A stretch of 37,145 nt of DNA, from the NCBI GenBank assembly GCA_020249045.1, contig JADCGK010000036.1, forward strand, positions 1 to 37,145, in the 5' to 3' direction. Below the pieces are notes generated by a model. The model made no database searches. It was not told the DNA's origin and saw only the letters and a list, made by a program, of their open reading frames with translations. The DNA is from Azospirillum sp. Its GTDB lineage: Bacteria; Pseudomonadota; Alphaproteobacteria; CACIAM-22H2. The position numbers and the translations under genes are program-made. Below are positions 4,425 to 27,889 of this stretch, piece after piece. Every line of letters starts with the position of its first letter. Within the stretch, counting starts at the first letter, position 1.

Positions 4425-4452
4425 AAACCGCCGGGCGTGAGCCCGGCGGTTT
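4425..4452 (-). terminator. Rho-independent terminator after flaF
   Basis: A 9-bp GC stem (CCGCCGGGC / GCCCGGCGG) with a 4-base GTGA loop lies at 4428-4449 and is flanked by complementary A and T runs. Read on the minus strand it is followed by TTTTTCTTTT, a good intrinsic terminator about 30 bases past the flaF stop. It separates flaF from the sigma-54 flgK operon. Confidence 0.85.
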
Positions 4453-9545: not shown

Positions 9546-10190
9546 ATGGCGGGATGGATATCGCAGACGGCGCCCCCCTCGGCCCTCGCCCACCCGTCGC
9601 GCGCGGAAGACGCACATACGACCGCTGCGCGCGCGTTCGCGGGTTTGCTCGACGCCGCGAGCGGCCGATGGCACGAACCCGACGACGCGCGCGAAACGCC
9701 GATCGGTTTATGGCGAGTGGATGGGACCTATCGCATCCATCTGCCCCGCCACATCGACGCGCACGCGCTCGTCTGGCGCGCGCAAGCGGCCGCCAAACCG
9801 ATGGTGGCCACGCCCGTCGCCTTGCGGCACGTCGCCGGGGCGTGGGCGGAAATCCTGCCGGCCGTCGAACCGCGCGGGCCCGAACCGGTTGGCACCGGTC
9901 TTGCGGTCTTCGATTCCGATGGCCTGCGCGCCGAATACGCTTTCGCGTGGCGGTTATGGGCCGGCCAAGGCTGGCGGCCCGATCCCGCCCACGAACCCGA
10001 TGCCGTCGCCCGCTGCCGTGCCGCGCCTTGGGCGGCGATGGGCGCGCTCGATCCGGTTCGTCCGCGCGGGCATGCCGGCTTCGCGGAAAACTGCGGGCGG
10101 TGCCAGCGGCACGCGCTGGGCCGCAATGATTTCGCACTGCCGCTTTTCTTCTGTCGTTTCGAATGTCTCAAACCGGGGACTTGGCCATGA
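9546..10190 (+). CDS. Unknown protein with a C-terminal CxxC motif, between flgD and sciP
   Basis: I do not recognise this 214-residue protein. Codon use (G/C third positions) matches neighbouring genes and supports this frame over the overlapping ones. It starts at ATG 9546 (GTG 9540 is possible), 20 bases after flgD, with an AGG about 8 bases upstream. It has no signal peptide or membrane segment. It is rich in Trp, Arg and Ala (for example GLWRVDGTYRIHLPRH, FAWRLWAGQGW) and ends with NCGRCQRHALGRNDF, where Cys183 and Cys186 form a CxxC that could bind metal or be redox-active. The position in the fliK-flgD unit suggests a flagellar or cell-cycle role, but that is inference from location only. 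Confidence 0.6.
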   Translation: MAGWISQTAPPSALAHPSRAEDAHTTAARAFAGLLDAASGRWHEPDDARETPIGLWRVDGTYRIHLPRHIDAHALVWRAQAAAKPMVATPVALRHVAGAWAEILPAVEPRGPEPVGTGLAVFDSDGLRAEYAFAWRLWAGQGWRPDPAHEPDAVARCRAAPWAAMGALDPVRPRGHAGFAENCGRCQRHALGRNDFALPLFFCRFECLKPGTWP

Positions 10191-10231
10191 TCCCGTTCGC
10201 GCACGTCAACCAAAGCTTAAGCCGGCCGCGG

Positions 10232-10239
10232 CTAGAGTC
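10232..10239 (+). promoter_or_regulatory. CTAGAGTC element upstream of sciP
   Basis: CTAGAGTC lies 7 bases before the sciP ATG and contains a GANTC (CcrM methylation) site at 10235-10239. The same 8-mer recurs as an inverted pair directly after sciP. CTAG is usually rare in bacterial genomes, so a shared regulatory function is plausible but unproven. Confidence 0.4.
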
Positions 10240-10246
10240 CGGCGCT

Positions 10247-10564
10247 ATGGACGACACCGCATTCACGGCACCGACGGCACCGGCCGAACGGCCCCGCGAT
10301 CCGCGCGCCGCAGCGCGGTCGGCGCGCAAAATCCCGCTGCCCGCCCCCGGCACCCAGCGCTGGGTGGTCCGGCGCAAAGCCGCCGTCGTCGAAGCCGTGA
10401 AGACCGGCCAATTGGCGTTGGAGGACGCGTGTCGCGTGTACGGGATTACCGCCGAGGAGCTGCAAGGCTGGCAGCGCCTGCTCGAAAACCACGGGACCCG
10501 AGGGTTGCGGGTTACCCGTTTGAAGGATTATCGAGCCCAAAACTTGAGTCAAATCAAAGGTTAA
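10247..10564 (+). CDS. sciP: SciP-family CtrA inhibitor (DUF1153)
   Basis: SciP binds CtrA and blocks its recruitment of RNA polymerase in Caulobacter, where it is made late in the cell cycle. The 105-residue product has a Pro/Ala/Arg-rich leader of about 35 residues. The conserved DUF1153 block follows: IPLPAPGTQRWVVRRKAAVV, EAVKTGQLALEDACRVYGI, LQGWQRLLENHGTRGLRVTR and LKDYR, including a helix-turn-helix. ATG 10247 gives a length close to the family. An in-frame extension upstream overlaps the preceding gene and lacks family similarity. As in Caulobacter, it sits by flagellar genes, here together with ctrA and chpT about 12-16 kb away. GANTC sites flank it, fitting cell-cycle-dependent expression. 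Confidence 0.88.
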   Translation: MDDTAFTAPTAPAERPRDPRAAARSARKIPLPAPGTQRWVVRRKAAVVEAVKTGQLALEDACRVYGITAEELQGWQRLLENHGTRGLRVTRLKDYRAQNLSQIKG

Positions 10565-10609
10565 CCCTCTGATCCGACTCTAGAAAGAGACGCTAGAGTC
10601 TTGTGAATC
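10546..10609. promoter_or_regulatory. Cluster of four GANTC sites and a CTAG-centred inverted repeat
   Basis: GANTC occurs at 10546, 10576, 10596 and 10605. The middle two are the outer ends of a perfect inverted repeat, GACTCTAG (10576-10583) and CTAGAGTC (10593-10600), separated by 9 bases. This could be a methylation-sensitive operator between sciP and fliF. It could also be a weak terminator for sciP, but only TTGT follows the stem. Confidence 0.5.
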
Positions 10610-10689
10610 GGCAAAAATTTCCCAGAAAGTGGGAAAATTCTGCCGGGTCTTAACCTTCTGTTCACGCCTCTTCCCTACGATACTTATCA

Positions 10690-10737
10690 AAGTTTGGATA
10701 AAATTGTGCCAATTGCGGCACCCGATTATCCAAACTT
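10690..10737. promoter_or_regulatory. Nested palindrome upstream of fliF
   Basis: Perfect 12-base arms AAGTTTGGATAA (10690-10701) and TTATCCAAACTT (10726-10737) enclose a second inverted repeat, GTGCC (10706-10710) and GGCAC (10717-10721), around AATTGC. It lies in the AT-rich fliF leader, about 70 bases before the preferred start. On the plus strand a GG-N10-GC pair (TGGATAA-AATT-GTGCC) overlaps it, a poor sigma-54 match. It could be an operator for a dimeric regulator or an RNA hairpin; there is no T-run to make it a terminator. Confidence 0.65.
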
Positions 10738-10809
10738 CGGATGGTTTTTCAGGCCTCGCGCATCGGTCCGGCCGGACCGAACGAGGGGCCCCAAGGGAAG
10801 AGGTTTCAC

Positions 10810-12471
10810 GTGGGCGGTTTCGCCGAGACACTGCGGCAATTGGGGCCGATGCGGCTGTCGCTTCTGGGCGCGGTCGCGGTGGGTTTGTTGGGGTTTTTCT
10901 TCTTCTTTTCGATGCGGCTTTCCCAGCCGCCGATGGGGCTGCTCTATAGCGAACTTTCGACCCAGGACGCGGCCGCGATCACCGCGCGGCTCGAACAGCA
11001 GCAAATCCCCTTCGATCTGCGCAACAACGGCAACACGATCTTCGTCCCCGAAGACCGCGTCTTGCGCCTGCGTTTGAGCTTCGCCGAGGCCGGCATCCCG
11101 CGCGGCGGTTCGATCGGCTACGAGATCTTCGACAAGGGCGAAGCGCTCGGCCAGACCAATTTCATGCAGCAGCTCAACCACGTGCGCGCGCTCGAAGGCG
11201 AACTCGCGCGCACGATCAGCGCGCTGCAGCCCGTGCAGAGCGCACGCGTGCACCTTGTCATTCCGCGCCGCGATCTGTTCAACCGGGAGCGCCAGGAACC
11301 GACCGCCTCGGTCATCGTGCGCATGCGCGATCCGTCGAACCGCCTGCCCCGCCAGCAAGTCCAAGCCGTGCAGTCGCTCGTCGCCGCCGCCGTGCCGGGC
11401 ATGCGCCCGGTCCGCGTGTCGGTCGTCGACGACCGCGGCAATCTGCTCGCCCGCGGCCAGGCCGAGGGCGACGAGCCGAGCGCCATCAACAATTCGGTCG
11501 AGGAATTGCGCCGCGGCTACGAACAACGCCTGTCGCGCACCATCGAAACCGTGCTCGAGCGCGTCGTCGGGCCGGGCAAGGCGCGCGCGGAAGTGGCCGT
11601 GGATCTGGATTTCGACCGCATCGTCACCAACAAGGAGGATTTCGATCCCGACCGGCAGGTGGTGCGCTCGACCCAGACGGTGACCGAGCAGAACGAATCC
11701 TCCGAAAGCGCCGCGCAAGTGTCGGTGCAGAACAATCTGCCCGACAGCGGTCAGGAAGCCGGCGGTCCGCGCACCACGAGCCGCGGCAACCGGACCGAGG
11801 AAACGACCAATTTCGAGATCGCCAAGACGATCACCCAGCACGTGCGCGAACAAGGCGTCATCCGGCGCATGACCGTGGCGGTGCTGGTCGACGGCAACAC
11901 GACCGGCGCGGGCGCCGAGCGCCAATGGCAACCGCGTTCGGAGGAGGAGTTGCAGCGCCTCACCGCCCTCGTGCGCAACGCGATCGGGTTCGACCAGCGC
12001 CGGGGCGACACGATCGAAGTCGCCAATCTGCGCTTCTACGCGCCCGAAGAACTGCCCGTCGACACGACCGAGCCGGGGCTGTTCGACTTCTCCAAGCAAG
12101 ACATCATGCGCATCGCCGAGGTCTTCGTGATGGCGATCGTCGCGCTGCTGGTGATCCTGCTGGTGGCCCGCCCGATCATCAACCACGTCCTCAAGACCGC
12201 AACCGAGAAGCGCGAAGCCGAACGCGCGGCCGCCGAGGCCGCCGCCGAGCAGGCCCAAATGCTGCCCGGTGCCGGCGGCCCGGGGGCGCTTCCCGGCATG
12301 GGCCCCGCCCCGGGCATGGAAGGCCCCAGCGAAATCGAACAGATGATCGACATCGCCCAGGTCGAAGGCCGCGTCCGCGCCTCCTCGATCAAGAAGATCG
12401 GCGAGATCGTCGAGAAGCATCCGGAGGAGGCCGTCGCCATCCTCCGCACCTGGATGTATCAGGAAACCTAA
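10810..12471 (+). CDS. fliF: Flagellar MS-ring protein FliF
   Basis: FliF forms the membrane MS ring on which the rotor and export apparatus assemble. The preferred start is GTG 10810, which has AAGAGG 6 bases upstream and gives 553 residues; ATG 10741 would add 23 poorly conserved residues. The first membrane segment is near residues 16-34 (LSLLGAVAVGLLGFFFF) and the second near 435-455 (EVFVMAIVALLVILLVA). Between them are ring-building motifs (IPRGGSIGYEIFD, ALEGELARTISALQPVQSAR, RLPRQQVQAVQSLV) and a Glu/Ser-rich region. The C-terminus (IKKIGEIVEKHPEEAVAILR then TWM) is the FliG-binding tail, retained even though the adjacent FliG-like gene is truncated. Confidence 0.95.
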   Translation: MGGFAETLRQLGPMRLSLLGAVAVGLLGFFFFFSMRLSQPPMGLLYSELSTQDAAAITARLEQQQIPFDLRNNGNTIFVPEDRVLRLRLSFAEAGIPRGGSIGYEIFDKGEALGQTNFMQQLNHVRALEGELARTISALQPVQSARVHLVIPRRDLFNRERQEPTASVIVRMRDPSNRLPRQQVQAVQSLVAAAVPGMRPVRVSVVDDRGNLLARGQAEGDEPSAINNSVEELRRGYEQRLSRTIETVLERVVGPGKARAEVAVDLDFDRIVTNKEDFDPDRQVVRSTQTVTEQNESSESAAQVSVQNNLPDSGQEAGGPRTTSRGNRTEETTNFEIAKTITQHVREQGVIRRMTVAVLVDGNTTGAGAERQWQPRSEEELQRLTALVRNAIGFDQRRGDTIEVANLRFYAPEELPVDTTEPGLFDFSKQDIMRIAEVFVMAIVALLVILLVARPIINHVLKTATEKREAERAAAEAAAEQAQMLPGAGGPGALPGMGPAPGMEGPSEIEQMIDIAQVEGRVRASSIKKIGEIVEKHPEEAVAILRTWMYQET

Positions 12472-12474
12472 GCG

Positions 12475-12747
12475 ATGGAGCCCGTCATCATGGACATCGA
12501 GCCTCGTCGCGAAGCGGTAGCGCCCTTGAACAGTCGCGCCGCTTTGGCCGGCGCGAAGCGTGCGGCGGCCTTGCTGCTCGCGCTCGACGAAACGGCGGCG
12601 GGCAAGCTGACCGCCGGCCTCGACGTGAGCGAACTCGCCGCCATCGCCCGCGCGATGGAGGAACTCGAGCCCCTCGCCGCACCCGAACTCGAAGCGCTGA
12701 TGGAGCGCTTCGCGACCGAAACCTCGGCCGCGCGCCGGGCAGCCTGA
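12475..12747 (+). CDS. Short FliG N-terminal-domain-only protein
   Basis: This 90-residue protein occupies the place of fliG between fliF and fliH but is about a quarter of the usual 330-340 residues. Residues 24-85 resemble FliG_N: GAKRAAALLLALDETAAGKL, LDVSELAAIARAMEELEPL and LEALMERFATE match the KAAxLLLALG / ELxxISxAMAxL pattern that docks on the FliF tail. The middle and torque-generating C-terminal domains are absent, and only 10 bases separate its stop from fliH, so no remnant lies downstream. ATG 12475 follows the fliF stop by 3 bases; ATG 12490 with GGAG 8 bases upstream is an alternative. It may be a FliF-tail adaptor, with full FliG elsewhere, or a decayed fliG. Confidence 0.65.
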   Translation: MEPVIMDIEPRREAVAPLNSRAALAGAKRAAALLLALDETAAGKLTAGLDVSELAAIARAMEELEPLAAPELEALMERFATETSAARRAA

Positions 12748-13814: not shown

Positions 13815-15182
<1,368 letters not shown>

Positions 15183-22641: not shown

Positions 22642-23343
<702 letters not shown>

Positions 23344-25830: not shown

Positions 25831-26481
25831 TCATCCCCCCAAAATCGAGGGTAGAATCGCCCTGGCGAGGGGACCGTCTTGGCCCACCGCGACGTCGATC
25901 CCGCCGCCTGCCGCCCGCGCCAGCCGCCGCGACAACTCCCACGGCGCGGTTTTGGGGTTCAATTGGGCGGGTGCCGTCCGTCCGGCGAATGCGGCAACCG
26001 CTTCCTCCGCAAATTTGGCGCCCTGTCCGATCGCCGCCGCCTCCAACGTCACACGCGATCCGACGATGCCGCCGGTCGCCCGGACGGTCCCGCCGCGCGG
26101 CAGGGCCTCGATGCACGCCAGCGCCAACAACAATGCGATGCGTGCGCCTGTCCGCCCCGCCGCCGTCTCGCACGCCGGTTCGATGCGCCACTCCAGCGCC
26201 GCCTTTTCGCCCTCGAGCATGCCCGCCAATAACTGCCCCGCCTGGACGAACGGCGCGCCGCCCGACAAAGCGCCCGGCGTGCCGTAGATCACCCGGAAAA
26301 CCTGCAACCGCCGGCTCGCTTGGCGCGCGGATTGGCCGATCAAACGCACCACCTCGACGTCCGCCGCCTCGCCTTCGGCCAGCAGTTCCGCGCCGTTGAC
26401 CGCGGCGCCGACCGGTCCGACGAGGTCATGGCACATGCGCGCGGCGATCAATTCGAGAAGCCTGAGATCGGTGTCTTCCAT
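25831..26481 (-). CDS. chpT: Histidine phosphotransferase ChpT
   Basis: ChpT passes phosphate from the hybrid kinase CckA to CtrA (and CpdR in Caulobacter). The 216-residue protein has the ChpT dimerisation/HPt helix with the phosphorylated His18 in LIAARMCHDLVGPVGAAVNG, followed by AELLAEG. A C-terminal degenerate ATPase-like domain follows (IALLLALACIEALPRGGTV, PWELSRRLARAAGGGIDV) that lacks ATP-binding motifs, as in the family. It lies upstream of and in the same direction as cheY-cheB-cheR, 120 bases away, with ctrA just beyond. The linkage supports a motility-centred CtrA phosphorelay. Confidence 0.9.
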   Translation of the reverse strand: MEDTDLRLLELIAARMCHDLVGPVGAAVNGAELLAEGEAADVEVVRLIGQSARQASRRLQVFRVIYGTPGALSGGAPFVQAGQLLAGMLEGEKAALEWRIEPACETAAGRTGARIALLLALACIEALPRGGTVRATGGIVGSRVTLEAAAIGQGAKFAEEAVAAFAGRTAPAQLNPKTAPWELSRRLARAAGGGIDVAVGQDGPLARAILPSILGG

Positions 26482-26492
26482 GAGGGGCAGCC

Positions 26493-26517
26493 TAGCAACC
26501 TCGCCCGCGCGAGGCTA
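26493..26517. other. Inverted repeat between divergent chpT and the DUF3553 gene
   Basis: CCTCGC-CCGC-GCGAGG forms a 6-bp stem with a 4-base loop. It is flanked by TAG (then CAA) on the left and CTA on the right, so the stem can extend around a small bulge. It fills most of the 47-base gap and may be an operator shared by both genes or a leader hairpin. Confidence 0.4.
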
Positions 26518-26528
26518 TGTTCCCGGTC

Positions 26529-26711
26529 ATGACGCGCCACGCGCCCGGCAGTTACGTCCGCCATCCCGACAAGCCCGAATGGGGCTTGGGCCAAGTCCAA
26601 TCGGCGATCGGCGCGCGTGTGACGGTCAATTTCGAGAATGCCGGCAAATTGCTGATCGATGCGGCGGCGGTGGAATTGCACCCCGTCGATCCGGATTCCG
26701 AAACGCCATGA
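26529..26711 (+). CDS. DUF3553-family small protein
   Basis: The product has 60 residues from ATG 26529 (64 from ATG 26517, which is less likely because it falls in the hairpin). It starts MTRHAPGSYVRHPDKPEWGL and contains GLGQVQSAIGARVTVNFENA and GKLLID. This is the DUF3553 pattern, a small beta-rich fold like the CarD/UvrD-tail type that binds proteins or nucleic acid. Its function is unknown. Its stop overlaps the start of the ankyrin gene (ATGA), implying one operon. Confidence 0.75.
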   Translation: MTRHAPGSYVRHPDKPEWGLGQVQSAIGARVTVNFENAGKLLIDAAAVELHPVDPDSETP

Positions 26712-27889
26712 AGCGCTTCGCTGCGGCCGTCTTCGCCGCTTGGTTTGCGGCGTGCCCGGCCCTGGCCCAACCGGCGCCCGTCGAGGCGTTGAACCGCGCG
26801 CTCGTGGAGGCCGCGCGCGCGGGCGAACTCGATCTCGTGCGGCGCGCGCTCGATCTGGGCGCCGACGTCGAAGCGCGCGAGCCGGTCCAGGACAATACCG
26901 CCCTGATGGCCGCCGCCCGCGAAGGCCATGCGGCCGTGCTCGATCTGTTGCTCGCGCGCGGCGCGCGTATCGACGCGACGACGCGCGACGGCTGGACGGC
27001 GCTGCTCTACGCCGCCTGGGCGGCCAATCATGTCGTCGCCAATATTTTGGTGGATCGCGGGGCCGATCCGAACGCGACGGATCGGGACAACGCGTTCTCG
27101 CCGCTGACCCTCGCCGCCCGGCGCGGCTCGGTCGCGCTCGCCGCGCGGCTGTTGGGCAAGGGCGCCAGGATCGAGCATATCGAACGCCGTTCGGGCCTGG
27201 ATGCATTGGCGCTGGCCGCGGGCGCGGGCTCGGCCGAACTCGTCGCCGAATTGCTGACGCGCGGCGCGCGGCCGATCGTCGCCGGCCGCGACGGGGAAAC
27301 GGCGCTCACCCTGGCCGCCCGGCGCGGCGAAACGGCGACGATCGACCTGCTGCTGCAGGCCGGGGCCGACCCCAACCTCGCGCGCGCCGATGGGGCGACG
27401 CCTGCGTTGATCGCGGCCGCCGCCGGGCGGGCGGCGGCGCTGCGCCGGCTGGCGGCGGCGGGCGCCAAGCTCGATGCGCGCGCGCGCGACGGGGCGGGCG
27501 TTCTGGGCCGCGCGGTGCGCAGCTTGGATGCCGAAACGATCCGCGCGGCGATCGAAGCCGGCGCGCAAGTCGACCAGCCCGACCGCGACGGCGAAACGGC
27601 GTTGATGACGGCGGCGCGCCTCGGCGAAGTCTCGATGATCGAGCTGTTCTTGCGCCTCGGCGCCGACCCCAACCGCCGGGCCGATCCGCCGGGTGTGACG
27701 GCGCTTATGCTCGCGGCCAATAACGGCCACCGCGACGCGGTCGAACGTTTGCTTGCCGCCGGGGCGGATCCATCGCTGAAGGCCGACGACGGCTGGGACG
27801 CGGTCAAAGCGGCCGAGGATATCGGCGAGGACGAAATCGCCGCCGTCCTGCGCACGGCCCTCTTGCGCGCGAGCCCGCGCGGCCGGTAA
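26708..27889 (+). CDS. Secreted/periplasmic ankyrin-repeat protein
   Basis: The 393-residue product starts at ATG 26708, overlapping the DUF3553 stop. It has a clear Sec signal peptide (MKRFAAAVFAAWFAACPALA, cleavage before QPAP) and then ten or so ankyrin repeats filling the rest. Repeats keep the TALMAAAREGH, LLLARGARIDA, GADPNA and DGETALMTAA patterns with helix pairs of about 33 residues. No enzymatic domain is visible, so it is probably a protein-binding scaffold in the periplasm. The partner is unknown. It is followed 12 bases later by the cytochrome gene. An in-frame N-terminal extension of about 100 residues covers the chpT start and the DUF3553 gene and is not real. Confidence 0.88.
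   Translation: MKRFAAAVFAAWFAACPALAQPAPVEALNRALVEAARAGELDLVRRALDLGADVEAREPVQDNTALMAAAREGHAAVLDLLLARGARIDATTRDGWTALLYAAWAANHVVANILVDRGADPNATDRDNAFSPLTLAARRGSVALAARLLGKGARIEHIERRSGLDALALAAGAGSAELVAELLTRGARPIVAGRDGETALTLAARRGETATIDLLLQAGADPNLARADGATPALIAAAAGRAAALRRLAAAGAKLDARARDGAGVLGRAVRSLDAETIRAAIEAGAQVDQPDRDGETALMTAARLGEVSMIELFLRLGADPNRRADPPGVTALMLAANNGHRDAVERLLAAGADPSLKADDGWDAVKAAEDIGEDEIAAVLRTALLRASPRGR

Follow-up and report, generated by a model that had tools for sequence, protein, structure and literature searches.

The nested palindrome at 10690-10737 of the 37,145-nt stretch of Azospirillum sp. DNA analysed here (the window) is kept in 11 species as an RNA pairing with a diverged 3' strand, always in the leader of fliF. 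We consider it moderately probable that it is a two-tier stem-loop at the 5' end of the fliF-flbD transcript, predicted to set the lifetime or the translation of that message. The pairing is maintained through compensatory and G-U changes, which, as read from the alignment, is the signature of an RNA structure and not of a DNA operator. RNA is preferred over DNA mainly because G-U pairs preserve an RNA stem but spoil a DNA operator.

Results

A single-copy nested palindrome in the fliF leader

The 48-base nested palindrome was described exactly in an earlier note on this DNA. Perfect 12-base outer arms, AAGTTTGGATAA (10690-10701) and TTATCCAAACTT (10726-10737), are complementary without mismatch and surround a 5-base inner repeat, GTGCC (10706-10710) and GGCAC (10717-10721), with a 6-nt loop, AATTGC (10711-10716). 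As an extended RNA stem, this hairpin (H1) spans approximately 10684-10744, and the palindrome lies about 70-72 nt upstream of the fliF start codon (GTG, 10810). Folding of the fliF leader gave z = -3.5. The genome (3.87 Mb) has a single copy of the full palindrome, and this rules out a dispersed repeat (REP or MITE-like).

Two perfect inverted repeats with arms of at least 12 bases are found in the window (at 10690 and 4425), against 0.77 expected from whole-window shuffles. Within the intergenic stretch 10565-10809 (245 bases), such a repeat arose in 17 of 20,000 dinucleotide shuffles. By length alone the palindrome is unremarkable window-wide and rare within its intergenic stretch; it is the relatives that carry the weight of the case. 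The window's other perfect 12-base repeat is AAACCGCCGGGC (4425-4452).

Downstream, the genes follow an early flagellar operon order, fliF-fliG(N)-fliH-fliN-flbD-flhA, with an FlhF-like SRP54 GTPase and a MinD/FlhG-like ATPase encoded 3' of the FlhA gene. The FlbD match (NF050807) scores 750 bits at a cut-off of 750, and the sciP-like gene reaches 92.8 bits against the NCBIfam SciP model, slightly below its cut-off of 100. The gene next after fliF (12475-12747) encodes a 90-aa protein with the FliG N-terminal domain only (PF14842); other genera of the family carry a full fliG at that place, and genomes of this genus have 2 to 6 FliG_C matches elsewhere, some partial. Near the flagellar cluster lies a gene for a 233-aa response regulator with a winged-helix output domain that appears CtrA-like (22642-23343), and 26396-27889 encodes a 497-aa ankyrin-repeat protein.

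Table 1 Features of the fliF promoter, leader and neighbouring genes (positions in the window).
Feature	Position	Strand	Basis
sciP-like gene (DUF1153), 5' of promoter	10163..10564	+	Pfam PF06627 4.5e-26
Upstream copy of GGCA-type (ftr/FlbD-like) element, GGCAAAAATTTCCC	10610..10623	.	Inverted pair conserved in 11/11 genus members
GGAAAATTCTGCC, likely FlbD/ftr-type site (binding presumed)	10632..10644	.	89 non-redundant leaders
CtrA box TTAACCTTCTGTTCA (TTAA-N7-TTCA)	10650..10664	+	Sequence; class-wide alignment; PMC4287350 motif
-10-like element CTACGATAC	10675..10683	+	26 bp after CtrA box start
Hairpin H1	10690..10737	+	Sequence, folding, covariation in 11 species
U-tract TTTTT after H1	10745..10749	+	Present in clades 1 and 3; degraded in clade 2
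Hairpin H2, core CGGTCCGGCCGGACCG (10764-10779)	10753..10789	+	Folding; weakly supported in several relatives
Shine-Dalgarno sequence GGGAAGAGG	10795..10803	+	Conserved in genus alignment
fliF, GTG start	10810..12471	+	Pfam YscJ_FliF, YscJ_FliF_C; start aligned in 11/11 genus members
flbD, same operon as fliF	13815..15182	+	NCBIfam NF050807 FlbD, 8.8e-226

The hairpin is probably 5'-terminal on the transcript

The CtrA box pattern is conserved across the class as TTAAC-N7-TTCA, and in many other leaders of the class a CTA-type -10 follows the box at a distance of about 26 bases. At the -10-like element, TACGATAC is unchanged among the 11 species. In Caulobacter, full CtrA sites sit near -35 (PMC4287350), and Rhodobacter fla2 promoters under CtrA, including that of fliF2, start at a purine (PMC6180460). 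From the spacing of the CtrA box and the -10 we infer a transcription start at about 10685-10690, so that the hairpin would form the 5' end of the mRNA.

Upstream of the box, GGAAAATTCTGCC is the counterpart of a class-wide inverted repeat, GGCAAAwTTTgCC, located 18 to 6 bp 5' of the CtrA box. We take this GGCA-type repeat to be a likely ftr-type element, also in view of its conservation. The likely FlbD-type site is 10610-10644, 5' of the palindrome.

The second hairpin, H2, sits just 5' of the ribosome-binding site, and most relatives have one of differing sequence. It folds better than shuffled sequences in only some of the genomes (z is -3.0 in the window but approaches 0 in G007-G009), and we therefore treat it as no more than a possible part of the element. 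Just 5' of the -10, CCTCTTCCC (10667-10675) is a perfect complement of the Shine-Dalgarno sequence GGGAAGAGG (10795-10803). It precedes the predicted start and is absent in G010, so the match is probably due to chance.

Pairing is conserved while the right strand diverges

The comparison set comprised 11 Tagaea-like genomes with a fliF leader, Tagaea sp. CACIAM 22H2 being among the relatives. Each species has one copy of the hairpin, always in the fliF leader, and folding gave a long two-tier hairpin at the same region in 11/11 genus members. A covariance model found a single match per genome of the genus, at fliF only; genome-wide searches with the left strand or this model gave nothing outside fliF except the palindrome's antisense. 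Two covariance or left-strand matches in distant genomes of the class were at chance level (E about 0.8), and the hairpin sequence was not found beyond the genus.

In the alignment, the CtrA box, the -10-like TACGATAC and the palindrome's left half belong to one conserved block, after which the right half has diverged. Conservation of the left strand (TCAArkTTTGGATAAAATTryGCmAATT) is close to that of the promoter core and extends to bases predicted to be unpaired. The right arm reads TCCAAACTT(T) in the window and three near relatives, TCrAArC in G002-G005, and TCTGAAAC, TCCGAGAC and CCCAAAAC in G007-G009; in all three clades, right and left arms from the same clade pair with each other.

RNAalifold predicted 12 pairs, four of which have changed on both sides with pairing kept: 9-55 (G-C/A-U), 10-54 (G-C/U-A), 24-39 (G-C/G-U/A-U) and 25-38 (C-G/U-A/U-G). 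A 20-pair structure was then evaluated on a sequence-only MAFFT alignment with 500 shuffles. Paired cells amounted to 81.5% against 76.5% in the shuffles, both-sided changes to 13 cells against 4.6, and the covariation score to 0.238 against 0.162 (0/500 shuffles in each case). When the partner strand was shifted by one to three columns, pairing fell from 81.5% to 29-51%, a control that favours the structure, which was drawn from the fold of the window and its nearest relatives. The both-sided counts are the stronger evidence, although kinship alone can inflate them, as the tool itself warns. On the tree, most of the changes happened only once, so independent compensations are few, approximately four pairs among the three clades, two of them with a visible G-U intermediate. 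Outside clade 1, the hairpin contains 2-6 G-U pairs per species.

With the 5' half fixed and the 3' half shuffled, the native energy was matched in 0-6 of 1000 shuffles in every species. Swapping the halves of clade 1 with those of clades 2 and 3 mostly destroyed the fold: most energies rose from about -18 to -25 kcal/mol to about -9 to -16 kcal/mol, a few combinations still reaching about -20 kcal/mol. Swaps between clades 2 and 3 were tolerated.

Folding in fliF leaders across the class

We aligned 89 non-redundant alphaproteobacterial leaders on the CtrA box, each required to have a GGCA-like word within the 42 bases before the box; the presence of the word is thus partly selected, and the fixed place of the GGCA-type repeat (GGCAAAwTTTgCC at -18 to -6) is unselected. 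In sliding windows, folding energy dips at the upstream inverted repeats and again in the first ~55 nt past the predicted start. At +30, counted from the CtrA box, z averages -0.96 over the 89 leaders, with a standard error of 0.16, and 17% of leaders are below -2. The comparison is with upstream windows of these fliF leaders at -190 to -100 (Mann-Whitney p = 4e-5), and windows around -110 have a similar mean z of -0.92. Strong unrelated hairpins occur at this position in L012 (z -7.1), L235, L247 and L252, and other leaders have none. With upstream windows of fliF leaders as the sole control and similar values near -110, these data are only suggestive of a modest position-specific folding tendency in other families, weaker than in Tagaea-like genomes and unrelated in sequence.

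Some leaders share sequence elements of their own. Six Dongia-type leaders (L119, L129, L145, L159, L223, L245) have in common an almost invariant AT-rich palindrome, AATTCGTCGAAAATTTTAGTATATAAAATTTTAGwCGAATT, 3' of the CtrA promoter of fliF. The fliF leaders L105, L114, L138 and L238, from other families, contain TTTTGTATAAAATTTTA, which matches TTTTGGATAAAATT of Tagaea clades 2 and 3 at 13/14 bases (the window has GTTTGGATAAAATT) and sits at another distance from the GGCA-type repeat than its Tagaea counterpart. A TTTTGkATAAAATT motif is shared in leaders of other families.

Discussion

The proposed 5'-terminal stem-loop of the fliF-flbD mRNA would act as follows. CtrA on 10650-10664 would bring polymerase to the -10 at 10675-10683. 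The transcript would start at about 10685-10690, and its initial 50-60 nt would form the hairpin in cells. The paired 5' end would most likely shield the message from 5'-end-dependent decay and hold the leader accessible to the ribosome, which binds 70 nt further on. In this way the stem-loop would set the yield of FliF and FlbD per pulse of CtrA activity. Stabilisation of mRNA by a 5'-terminal stem-loop is an established mechanism according to the passage of PMC7509114 that cites Emory et al. 1992. A passive stem, though, needs no near-invariant left strand, least of all in its internal-loop and apical-loop bases, so an additional sequence-specific contact is likely, and this conservation leaves room for a bound factor.

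The main rival is accordingly a recognised RNA element, since the stem-loop alone does not explain the near-invariant left strand. A protein, small RNA or ligand would read the left strand and the loops and tune translation or decay, for example coupling the fliF message to flagellar assembly. We regard this as possible but not the likelier course. The left strand is about as conserved as the promoter core, unpaired bases included, a second and less supported hairpin directly precedes the Shine-Dalgarno sequence, and there is an alphaproteobacterial precedent in FlbT, which acts post-transcriptionally on the flagellin 5' leader (PMC4347634). Nevertheless, Rfam covariance models gave no match to the leader at E up to 5, no copy is found on other genes, neither an alternative fold nor a trans-acting partner was identified, and promoter-proximal sequence demands could instead conserve the left strand. 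We judge the hairpin to be a genuine, conserved RNA structure that lacks an Rfam match and is of a general kind already known. The earlier suggestion of an RNA switch is supported as to the RNA, a hairpin that covaries in 11 species and probably stands at the transcript's 5' end, but not as to the switch, since neither a ligand nor an alternative fold nor an Rfam match turned up. More speculatively, and somewhat less probably, a flagellar or cell-cycle factor may read the invariant left strand and so add a post-transcriptional tier of feedback to the CtrA-driven fliF-flbD operon; analogous 5' hairpins of unrelated sequence would then stand at this position in other alphaproteobacterial families.

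A DNA operator, at which FlbD, CtrA or another dimeric regulator would bind over or just after the transcription start, seems to us unlikely. The palindrome of the window is perfectly symmetric, the sequence of one arm is highly conserved, and in Caulobacter FlbD represses fliF at ftr4 (PMC3930126), flbD being part of the present operon. The other half-site, however, is kept as a pairing partner and not as a sequence, with up to 6 G-U pairs, and a GGCA-type inverted repeat suited to FlbD stands upstream with the CtrA box at a spacing fixed across the class. A genome search for the half-site, which the earlier note had proposed to look for near other flagellar promoters, gave 34 matches with at most two mismatches against 43 for the pattern read backwards, a chance level that speaks against a half-site regulon. 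The FlbD dimer site envisaged there is not supported, in view of the diverged second half-site, the replacement of Watson-Crick by G-U pairs and the better ftr-type candidate upstream. Two further candidates were rejected: a CtrA operator inside the palindrome, as 10690-10737 contains no TTAA-N7-TTAA and the box lies at 10650-10664, and a sigma-54 promoter, as GG-N10-GC (-24/-12) is incomplete in the window and its right half is not conserved in relatives. Least probable of all is an attenuator, in which the stem and UUUUU (10745-10749) would end part of the transcripts. In the window and in clade 1 the extended stem runs directly into U5, in clade 3 into U4-U5; this reading is weakened by clade 2, which has a broken U-tract (UAUUCC) yet retains the hairpin. 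The base of the stem, rich in A-U and G-U pairs with internal loops, is also not terminator-like. A terminator scan found none on the + strand here. The lack of a T-run stated in the earlier note was mistaken, since TTTTT immediately follows the outer extension of the stem.

The proposed 5'-terminal stem-loop resembles the stabilising stem-loops of the E. coli ompA type in its long stem, predicted to lie at or near the 5' end, far upstream of the ribosome-binding site, and in a fold that is kept while the sequence of one side drifts. It differs in that one strand is near-invariant, in belonging to an early flagellar operon with a CtrA promoter, and in that its role in decay is here a prediction. 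With the Caulobacter ftr4 site for FlbD it shares an inverted repeat at the fliF promoter of an operon encoding flbD; unlike ftr4, the palindrome is 3' of where transcription is predicted to start and is conserved as pairing in the RNA, and the ftr-like repeat is separate (10610-10644). The FlbT-dependent flagellin leader of Caulobacter is likewise the leader of a flagellar mRNA in an alphaproteobacterium, and a post-transcriptional role has been proposed for it, but it belongs to another gene class, and binding of FlbT is not indicated for the fliF leader.

Control of fliF in alphaproteobacteria has been described as transcriptional, with CtrA as activator and FlbD as repressor. The present data also outline a class-wide fliF promoter, with a GGCA-type inverted repeat, a CtrA box and a -10 at fixed spacing, an arrangement that is directly testable. 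The predicted covarying 5' hairpin would give the fliF-flbD operon, which encodes its own repressor, a control point at the level of RNA.
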